A DNA stretch of 37,912 nt, taken from assembly GCA_028288785.1 (NCBI GenBank), contig JAQGHV010000165.1, positions 1 to 37,912 on the forward strand, written 5' to 3'. The notes beneath the pieces were generated by a model that made no database searches, was not told the DNA's origin, and saw only the letters and a list, made by a program, of their open reading frames with translations. Position 1 is the first letter of the stretch, and every line of letters starts with the position of its first letter. This document shows, in pieces, positions 12,009-14,174 of the stretch. Position numbers and translations under genes: made by a program. The stretch comes from Rhodospirillales bacterium. GTDB taxonomy: Bacteria > Pseudomonadota > Alphaproteobacteria > Acetobacterales > Acetobacteraceae.

Positions 12009-12767
12009 TCAGCCCTGCACGGAATAGCCGCCATCGACGGGGATCGCGGTCCCGGTGATGAAGGCGGCGGCGTCGGAAGCGAGGAAGGCGGCGATGCCTT
12101 CGAAATCCTGTGGCGAGCCCCAGCGCTTGGCCGGCGTGCGCGCGAGGACATTGTCGTTCAGCAGCGGCATGTCACCGCGCGCCTTGCGGGTGAGGTCTGT
12201 GTCGATCCAGCCCGGCAGGATGGCGTTGACGGTGATGCCATCCGCCGCCCAGGCCGTGGCGAGCGCCTTGGTGAACTGCACGATGCCACCCTTGGACGCG
12301 GCATAGGCGATGTGCAGCGGCATCCCGAAGATGGACAGCATCGAGCCGTTGTTGATGACCCGCCCATGCCCGCTCGCCTTAAGATGCGGATGGGCCGCCT
12401 TCGCGGTGAGGTAGGCGGAGGTCAGGTTGGTGTCGACGACCGTGTGCCAGTCGGCTTCATCATAAGCCTCGGGGCGGTTGCGGATATTTGTCCCGGCGTT
12501 GTTCACCAGGATGTCGAGCCGGCCAAAGCGGGCGATGGTGGCCGCGATGGCGGCGGTGATCGAAGCCGGATCGGTGATATCGGTGTGCGTCGCTTCCGCC
12601 TCGGCGCCGAGGGCGCGCAGCTCGGCGACCGCAGCGGCGTTCTTGGCCGGGTTGCGCGCGGCGACCATGATCTTTGCGCCGGCCTTGGCGAGACCGCTGG
12701 CGAGGCCCAGCCCGATGCCGCCATTGCCGCCGGTGACGAAGGCGACGCGGCCGCTGAGGTCAAACAT
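12009..12767 (-). CDS. Short-chain dehydrogenase/reductase (SDR)
   Basis: A 252-aa classical SDR. The NAD(P) motif VTGGNGGIGLG is at the N-terminus, NNAG in the middle, catalytic Ser in NNGSMLS and Tyr/Lys in YAASK, with the late PGWIDTDLT and GTAIPVDGG blocks. This is the FabG/gluconate-dehydrogenase-like group; substrate unknown. The GTG at 12773 adds two residues (MAMF) and is an alternative start. Either start overlaps the end of carA (8 or 14 bp), implying coupled translation. Why an SDR is wedged between carA and carB is unclear. Confidence 0.9.
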   Translation of the reverse strand: MFDLSGRVAFVTGGNGGIGLGLASGLAKAGAKIMVAARNPAKNAAAVAELRALGAEAEATHTDITDPASITAAIAATIARFGRLDILVNNAGTNIRNRPEAYDEADWHTVVDTNLTSAYLTAKAAHPHLKASGHGRVINNGSMLSIFGMPLHIAYAASKGGIVQFTKALATAWAADGITVNAILPGWIDTDLTRKARGDMPLLNDNVLARTPAKRWGSPQDFEGIAAFLASDAAAFITGTAIPVDGGYSVQG

Positions 12768-14145
12768 TGCCACCCGCCTTGTTCGTCTCGATCATCTGCA
12801 CGAAGCGGTGGAACAGGTGGTGGCTGTCCGTCGGGCCCGGGCTGGCCTCCGGGTGATACTGGACCGAGAAGGCGGGGAACGCGTCGGAGGCGATGCCCTC
12901 GTTCGAGCCATCGAACAGCGACACATGGGTCACGTGGGCGCTCGCCGGCAGGGTCGCGGGGTCCACAGCAAAACCGTGATTCTGCGCGGTAATCTCGACG
13001 CGCCCGGTGGCGAGGTCGCGCACCGGCTGGTTGGCGCCGCGGTGCCCGCGCTCCAGCTTGTAGGTCTTGGCGCCAAGTGCGAGGCTCAGCAGCTGGTGCC
13101 CGAGGCAGATGCCGAAAACCGGCACGCCCGCCTTCATCACGCCCTGGATCGCGGGCACGGCGTACTCGCCCGTCGCCGCGGGGTCGCCGGGGCCGTTGGA
13201 CAGGAACACGCCATCCGGCTTGTGCGCCAGGATCTCATCGGCGGTGGCGGTCGCGGGCACCACCATCACGTCGAGGCCGGCGGCGGCAAGGCAGCGGAGG
13301 ATGTTGCGCTTGGCGCCGTAGTCGACCGCGACGACACGGTGGCTCGGCGCCTCGGGGCGGCCAAAACCGTCCGGCCAGGCCCAGGTTGCTTCGTTCCAGC
13401 TGTAGCTCTGGCGGCAGGAGACCTCGCGGGCAAGGTCCATCCCTTCAAGGCCGGGCCAAGCCTTCGCCTGCGCGATCAGCGCCGGCACGTCGAAGCGGCC
13501 ATTGGCGGGGTAGGCGATGACGCCGTTCGGCGCGCCGCCGTCGCGGATGCGCTGCGTCAAAGCACGAGTGTCGATGCCGGCGATCCCGGCGATGCCGTGG
13601 CTGACCAGCCAGGCGTCGAGGTGCCGCGTTGCGCGCCAGTTGGCGGGCTCAGTGACCCGCTGCTTCACGACTAGGCCGCGCGCGACCGGCGTCGCGGCCT
13701 CCATATCCTCGGCATTGGTGCCGGTATTGCCGATATGAGGGAAGGTGAAGGCGATGATCTGCCCGGCATAGGACGGGTCGGTGAGGGTTTCCTGGTAGCC
13801 GGTCATGCCCGTGTTGAAGCAAAGCTCCGCGACCTGGGTCGCTCGGGCGCCAAAGCCCTCGCCCCAGAACACGCTGCCATCGGCGAGCACCAGAACCGCC
13901 GTGGCGCCGGGCGGCGGCGCGTCGGGCTGAGAGGCTACGGGCATCGCTTGGGTCTCCGTGGCGGCCGGGGCGGAAGTGAGATCGGCGAGCGTAAGGCTGG
14001 TGGCGGCGAGAATGGCAGACCAGTGCTTGGCTGGGATACTGCGGGCCTGACGCCACTTGCGAATGGCTTCGGTACCGACGCCGCATCGGGCCGCCGCCGC
14101 TTCGGGGCCACCCAGAAGGGCGAGAACGTCTTCAACGCTGCGCAT
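12760..14145 (-). CDS. carA: Carbamoyl-phosphate synthase small subunit with N-terminal helix-turn-helix domain
   Basis: A 461-aa protein, about 70-80 residues longer than ordinary CarA. Residues 1-55 (MRSVEDVLALLGGPEAAAARCGVGTEAIRKWRQARSIPAKHW) form an HTH of the YdaS/Cro-like type. I recall NCBI describing such a domain on CarA and isoprenoid enzymes as carph-isopro. A Pro/Ala linker follows (about 56-80), then the CPSase small-chain domain (ATAVLVLADGSVFWGEGFGA). The class I glutaminase has Cys347 in FGICLGHQ and His431/Glu433 in QYHPEA. The start has AAGGA 4-5 nt upstream; the ORF could extend to 14214 or 14265, but those codons run through palindromic DNA. It supplies ammonia to CarB. 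The HTH could let CarA bind DNA. Confidence 0.95.
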   Translation of the reverse strand: MRSVEDVLALLGGPEAAAARCGVGTEAIRKWRQARSIPAKHWSAILAATSLTLADLTSAPAATETQAMPVASQPDAPPPGATAVLVLADGSVFWGEGFGARATQVAELCFNTGMTGYQETLTDPSYAGQIIAFTFPHIGNTGTNAEDMEAATPVARGLVVKQRVTEPANWRATRHLDAWLVSHGIAGIAGIDTRALTQRIRDGGAPNGVIAYPANGRFDVPALIAQAKAWPGLEGMDLAREVSCRQSYSWNEATWAWPDGFGRPEAPSHRVVAVDYGAKRNILRCLAAAGLDVMVVPATATADEILAHKPDGVFLSNGPGDPAATGEYAVPAIQGVMKAGVPVFGICLGHQLLSLALGAKTYKLERGHRGANQPVRDLATGRVEITAQNHGFAVDPATLPASAHVTHVSLFDGSNEGIASDAFPAFSVQYHPEASPGPTDSHHLFHRFVQMIETNKAGGNV

Positions 14146-14156
14146 AAGGTCCTTAT
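14144..14156. promoter_or_regulatory. Perfect palindrome over the carA start codon and ribosome-binding site
   Basis: ATAAGG-T-CCTTAT is a perfect 13-bp palindrome that includes the carA Shine-Dalgarno (AAGGA on the minus strand) and part of the ATG. With a 1-nt centre it suits a dimeric DNA-binding protein better than an RNA hairpin. It lies 1 bp from the next palindrome. Function is inferred. Confidence 0.5.
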
Positions 14157-14157
14157 C

Positions 14158-14174
14158 TGGGAAAAAATTTCCCA
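14158..14174. promoter_or_regulatory. 17-bp perfect inverted repeat upstream of carA
   Basis: TGGGAAA-AAA-TTTCCCA is a perfect inverted repeat (7-bp arms, 3-bp spacer) that is unusually AT-rich for this genome. It is centred about 20 bp upstream of the HTH-carA start and lies between carA and divergent yqeY. It could be an operator, possibly for the HTH of CarA itself, or a 5'-UTR hairpin controlling the operon. A -10-like TATTAT lies about 25 bp further upstream on the minus strand, but no convincing -35 was found. Confidence 0.55.

Follow-up and report, generated by a model that had tools for sequence, protein, structure and literature searches.

A Cro-like HTH domain fused to CarA and its likely role in repression of carA in Acetobacteraceae

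CPSase makes the precursor shared by arginine and pyrimidines. Autoregulatory enzymes of the PutA and BirA/NadR types combine a catalytic and a DNA-binding domain in one polypeptide and act on their own genes or on genes of their pathway. HTH-CarA of Acetobacteraceae resembles them in joining a catalytic to a dedicated DNA-binding domain; it differs in the enzyme, in the DNA-binding fold and in its seemingly single target promoter, and also in an internal start that may separate the two functions. The carAB operon of E. coli is controlled by ArgR, PurR, RutR and PepA (PMC6245113). In that system, with its trigger enzymes PepA and PyrH, an enzyme likewise represses the carAB promoter, at the same biosynthetic step, which shows that enzymes can serve as repressors there; but PepA is devoid of a canonical DNA-binding motif, and PyrH itself was not found to bind the DNA (PMC6245113). 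PepA is a separate protein, whereas the CPSase subunit of Acetobacteraceae has a canonical HTH as part of its own chain, and no ArgR was detected in that family. The open-access literature yielded no paper describing the domain, the HTH-CarA fusion or the control of carA in Acetobacteraceae, and no description of the control circuit proposed here.

The window is the whole stretch of DNA that was analysed, 37,912 nucleotides of contig JAQGHV010000165.1 from a Rhodospirillales bacterium of the Acetobacteraceae. Its carA gene, the domains that the gene encodes and its neighbours are located as follows.

12760..14145, minus strand: carA, encoding HTH-CarA of 461 aa (ATG at 14145, stop at 12760; NF046037 and TIGR01368 above cut-offs)
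13975..14136, minus strand: Cro-like HTH domain, aa 4-57 (NF046037; AF2; PDB fold match)
14044-14073, minus strand: recognition helix, aa 25-34 (AF2 helix)
13900..13974, minus strand: flexible Pro/Ala linker, aa 58-82 (AF2 pLDDT <50 at aa 59-73)
12787..13899, minus strand: CPSase small-chain and glutamine amidotransferase domains (TIGR01368, PF00988, PF00117)
6824..10069, minus strand: carB, a 1081-aa ORF, co-directional and further downstream, identified by reading the sequence
14296..14751, plus strand: yqeY, the divergent neighbour (PF09424)

Domain structure and distribution of HTH-CarA

A first, sequence-only reading of this DNA described an HTH-like N-terminus joined by a Pro/Ala linker to a full CPSase small subunit, and profile searches bear this out: aa 4-57 match NF046037 (carph-isopro) with 68.2-68.7 bits against a cut-off of 38, and aa 83-453 match TIGR01368 (CarA) with 458 bits against a cut-off of 307. 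The class-I amidotransferase triad C347, H431 and E433 is intact and invariant among 33 relatives. Because the AF2 model of the whole protein is poor at aa 109-174, the fold search was performed with a model of the HTH domain alone (pLDDT 88.7), which contains five helices at residues 4-10, 14-21, 25-34, 39-49 and 53-57. AF2 and Foldseek agree on a five-helix Cro/XRE fold with a recognition helix. The best PDB match is operator-bound N15 Cro (6on0; probability 1.00, TM 0.69), and the top matches 6on0, 2hin and 3bd1 all have probability 1.00 and TM scores of about 0.7, with E-values of only 0.02-0.08 for so small a domain. Phage Cro proteins (N15 Cro 2hin/6on0, Xfaso 1 Cro 3bd1 and P22 Cro 1rzs) give profile E-values of about 2e-4 to 1e-1 to the CarA domain and share with it the fold and palindromic operators; unlike them, the CarA domain is cellular, fused to an enzyme and present throughout one bacterial family, with no phage context seen. 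It scores below the Pfam gathering cut-off for P22_Cro (PF14549; 23.7 vs 30.2 bits) and for the YdaS toxin (PF15943; 22.2 vs 30 bits), and an identity as YdaS toxin was rejected on this score and for want of a toxin context. The recognition helix, whose charge the sequence-only reading had made a touchstone of DNA binding, is basic in the model (R29, K30, R32). Among 109 Acetobacteraceae genes, E26, A27, K30 and W31 are invariant, while R29 is kept in 108 and R32 in 107.

The carph-isopro domain is found above cut-off in 189 of 200 sampled Acetobacteraceae genomes. Upstream loci were fetched for 112 genes, 109 of which are HTH-carA by sequence motif; two of the others (L105, with an apparent frameshift, and L107) look like HTH-carA that fails the motif test, and the third (L124) encodes a different protein. 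CarA carries no HTH in any of the 28 proteins inspected from other alphaproteobacteria, so that the fusion appears to be a derived character shared by the Acetobacteraceae. The domain of HTH-CarA is a member of NCBIfam NF046037, to which no function was found assigned; unlike HTH-CarA, members outside the family mostly precede Mic60/Mitofilin (17 of 26 by Pfam). In an alignment of members from loci L003-L031, single proteins with this HTH also match YjeF/Carb_kinase or zinc-binding dehydrogenase. The source genome contains a second carph-isopro match (G000:C93:5277-5435; L002 1441-1899), a stand-alone YdaS-like ORF of 152 aa; its neighbours are another small ORF and one that resembles a transporter of the tripartite-tricarboxylate type.

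Palindromes and operators upstream of carA

The upstream region of carA in the window contains the following palindromes and promoter elements.

14144..14156: palindrome ATAAGGTCCTTAT (ATAAGG-T-CCTTAT), overlapping the -10 element and the start
14158..14174: proximal operator TGGGAAAAAATTTCCCA (TGGGAAA-AAA-TTTCCCA), a perfect 12/12 match, kept family-wide, filling the -35/-10 spacer
14197..14213: degenerate distal operator, TGGGAGAAATATTATCG on the minus strand, 39 bp from the proximal one start to start, which matches the family spacing
14175..14180, minus strand: -35 element TGGACG, abutting the proximal operator
14152..14157, minus strand: -10 element GATAAG, abutting the proximal operator, with a 17-bp spacer

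Two perfect palindromes had been noted at the carA start. Both are present, with perfect arms and 1 bp between them, and both are rare by chance: with 2-3 mismatches allowed, about 0.03 matches to ATAAGGTCCTTAT and 0.01 to TGGGAAAAAATTTCCCA are expected in the window. Judged from comparative data, the function of such palindromes is decided by conservation and not by chance rarity. The palindrome over the start codon, proposed earlier as a CarA site, recurs at 10 or more of 12 positions in just 3 of 109 orthologous upstream regions; it was rejected as an operator and is accounted for by overlap of the -10 element with the start region. Sites of the 14158-14174 type are conserved family-wide beside HTH-carA, as the same reading had proposed to check. 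The distal operator, which the sequence-only reading had overlooked, is degenerate, and its homologue in a congener (L072), TGGGAAATTTCTTATCG, is degenerate too, in one half. Four weak (9/12) operator-like sites also occur within the window.

The motif TGGGAA-N5-TTCCCA was first found in 32 loci and then held in 80 further loci. With a site counted at 9 or more of 12 positions, the regions upstream of HTH-carA from 109 Acetobacteraceae contain two sites in 94 cases, one in 9 and none in 6, while a Markov null predicts two sites in 0.8 and one site in 11.7 of them. The six regions with no TGGGAA match instead carry CCGGAA-TTCCGG variants. Among the named loci, whose genomes partly overlap the set of 109, two sites are found in 79 of 79. 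The two sites typically lie 36-44 bp apart, start to start, with a mode of 38-40 bp; these spacings are no exact multiple of 10.5.

The sites are almost confined to carA. Exact 17-mer sites in 24 family genomes are located at carA in 27 of 29 cases, and the paired-site pattern, searched in 200 family genomes, occurs exactly once per genome in all 68 that have it (reversed control, 0). All 30 fetched pairs lie at HTH-carA, 27 of them assigned by a pattern script and three by coordinates, since the script pattern excluded the recognition-helix variant of those three. A wider regulon for the operator was rejected, exact sites being found almost solely at carA. Where the HTH is absent, so largely are the sites: 28 HTH-less carA genes of other alphaproteobacteria include none with two sites and two with one weak site, and in genus g252 (G317, G402; L158, L159), represented by two small, near-complete acetobacterial genomes, the HTH of CarA and the operators have both been lost. 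The source genome also contains abundant near-palindromic GGAAAGGAATTTCC-type elements on many contigs, apparently an interspersed repeat that has nothing to do with carA. GGGAAN5TTCCC with one mismatch gave 388 matches in this genome against 74 for the reversed control; as this search was swamped by the repeat, the 12-base form and its relatives were used.

The operator also varies together with the recognition helix. Residue Q33 is changed to S or A in all six genes with CCGGAA sites but in only 2 of the other 103 (Fisher p=1e-8). Shared ancestry inflates simple statistics such as these, though less so with 109 genomes of many genera and three independent changes. The replacement of Q33 accompanies a change of the outer operator base from G to C; Q33 has changed three times independently, and in each case the operator has changed on the same branch. 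Q33 is not the sole determinant of specificity, because L049 and L054 retain it while their outer operator bases are mostly C. Two features of a single-target autoregulator are thus found: the predicted operator is conserved at the gene's own promoter and not elsewhere, and change in protein specificity is matched by change in the operator, three times independently.

These observations bear on the possibility that the palindromes are operators of a separate, trans-acting pyrimidine or arginine regulator, the HTH of CarA doing something else. Separate regulators are usual for biosynthetic operons, as exemplified by E. coli carAB (PMC6245113), and the source genome encodes at least one other HTH of the carph-isopro family, the YdaS-like ORF. 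A separate pathway regulator should, however, have sites at further pyr or arg genes as well, whereas these sites are confined to carA, are gone when CarA loses its HTH and co-vary with its recognition helix; moreover, ArgR (PF01316) was over cut-off in 0 of 60 Acetobacteraceae genomes. This explanation is considered unlikely.

Promoter placement and the mode of control

When 73 loci are aligned on the proximal operator, they show the arrangement TTG(C/A)NN, 17-bp operator, TATANT, 7-8 nt, ATG. The proximal operator in these loci is exactly the -35/-10 spacer, and the ATG lies 12-13 nt beyond it. The -35 and -10 elements of the window occupy the same places, and its ATG is 7 nt past the -10 element. 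As the ATG follows just 7-8 nt after the -10 element, an mRNA beginning at the AUG is predicted, and the carA mRNA is probably leaderless. Most of the 73 leaderless-type genes have no SD at their start (mean -1.8 kcal/mol). Because the window start has an SD-like AAGGA (-5.9 kcal/mol), initiation on a leaderless mRNA is less sure in the window than in the family. Acetic acid bacteria of the Acetobacter/Gluconobacter type have their operators farther upstream, and their leader bears an SD; at one such locus inspected by eye (L100) the proximal operator overlaps the -35 element. The main text of the G. oxydans TSS paper makes no mention of carA. The co-directional carB is possibly part of the carA transcription unit. 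The suggestions that yqeY is a further target and that flux is the signal found nothing in their support.

The position of the operators points to repression rather than activation. HTH-CarA might instead bind the operators and activate or tune transcription, or mainly anchor the enzyme at the locus, and the distal site, being upstream of the promoter, is compatible with activation. But the proximal site, which separates -35 from -10 in the 73 loci and overlaps -35 in L100, occupies in both cases a classical position for a repressor, and an activating, tuning or mainly anchoring role of HTH-CarA seems unlikely. Some HTH domains of larger proteins do not bind DNA. The HTH of CarA might similarly be a degenerate protein-interaction domain, as in RodZ, and the palindromes chance or RNA features, and ATAAGGTCCTTAT does appear to be a chance palindrome. 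Against this, the DNA-facing residues are near-invariant, the operators are present family-wide far above the null and co-vary with the protein, and in most loci the sites are upstream of the predicted transcription start and hence outside the mRNA, which makes this account exceedingly improbable.

A probable second CarA product and the proposed circuit

The linker of HTH-CarA contains a putative internal start.

13942..13957, minus strand: SD GGAG at 13954-13957 and ATG at 13942-13944 (Met68), identified by SD energy

The SD-anti-SD energy at Met68 of the window gene is -6.6 kcal/mol. In 66 Acetobacteraceae carA genes the linker Met has a mean SD energy of -5.6 kcal/mol, compared with -3.95 kcal/mol in synonymous shuffles (p=5e-8) and -3.35 kcal/mol at other CarA Met codons (p=4e-12). 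An SD-led linker Met is found in 55 of the 73 leaderless-type genes vs 16 of the 36 others, most of which have an SD at the full-length start. These data suggest that an HTH-less CarA is probably also made from the linker ATG. Relic start codons provide an alternative account of this ATG, though an SD stronger than codon usage would give speaks for selection at present.

HTH-CarA is thus likely to be both an enzyme subunit and a dedicated repressor of its own gene, acting via TGGGAA-N5-TTCCCA. The domain, the operator pair, its promoter placement, its uniqueness to carA, the co-loss and the co-variation are read directly from sequence. CarA itself is taken as the binder because the sites are confined to carA, disappear together with the HTH and change along with the recognition helix, and because the fold is that of Cro; its physical binding, as a dimer, is what we infer from these. 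The sequence-only reading, in which CarA may repress its own operon from a palindromic site, thereby gains strong comparative support in its general idea; it had included the wrong palindrome, that over the start codon, and the pair is formed by 14158-14174 and 14197-14213. The Cro-like HTH, flexibly tethered, would bind the operator as a dimer, and with the proximal operator filling the 17-bp spacer, bound HTH-CarA would sterically exclude RNA polymerase. The second operator, about 39 bp upstream and degenerate in the window, would permit cooperative binding by multimeric CPSase; cooperativity may be weak in the window species because its own distal operator is degraded. With HTH-less CarA produced from the internal ATG, only some of the enzyme subunits would act as repressors. 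The outcome would be negative feedback that holds the amount of CPSase constant in a family in which no ArgR was found. The signal may be an excess of free CarA over CarB, which is our first guess, the oligomer state of CPSase as determined by nucleotides, or glutamine.

The fusions with Mic60/Mitofilin provide a possible parallel. In HTH loci outside the family (L003-L031, mostly Mic60 fusions), CGTACG occurs 42 times within 500 bp upstream (14 kb in total) and 18 times in the remaining 71 kb, hardly ever in the coding region; as a control, 18 kb of hemD loci from 30 genomes that lack the domain contain 2. The Mic60/Mitofilin fusions sit downstream of hemD, and CGTACG clusters about 600 bp upstream of the HTH start are seen for example in L008, L009, L012, L023, L027 and L031. 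This distribution suggests that the HTH family may generally target its own locus, and the clusters at Mic60 are possibly a second case of self-targeting or a membrane tether. A wider proposal, tentative and on balance doubtful, is that carph-isopro is a mobile self-control module with its own palindrome wherever it is fused (CarA, Mic60), and that the carA mRNA yields both a leaderless HTH-CarA repressor and an SD-initiated HTH-less subunit, translation setting the ratio of repressor to enzyme.

With the proposed role, part of an NCBI domain family that had no assigned function acquires one, together with a defined operator, a specificity-determining residue and a testable circuit, and the Mic60 parallel would extend self-control to a membrane-organising protein. 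Acetobacteraceae are of industrial and clinical relevance (acetic acid bacteria, Roseomonas). E. coli needs several regulators for the control of CPSase, and in Acetobacteraceae the enzyme appears to bring its own repressor with it.
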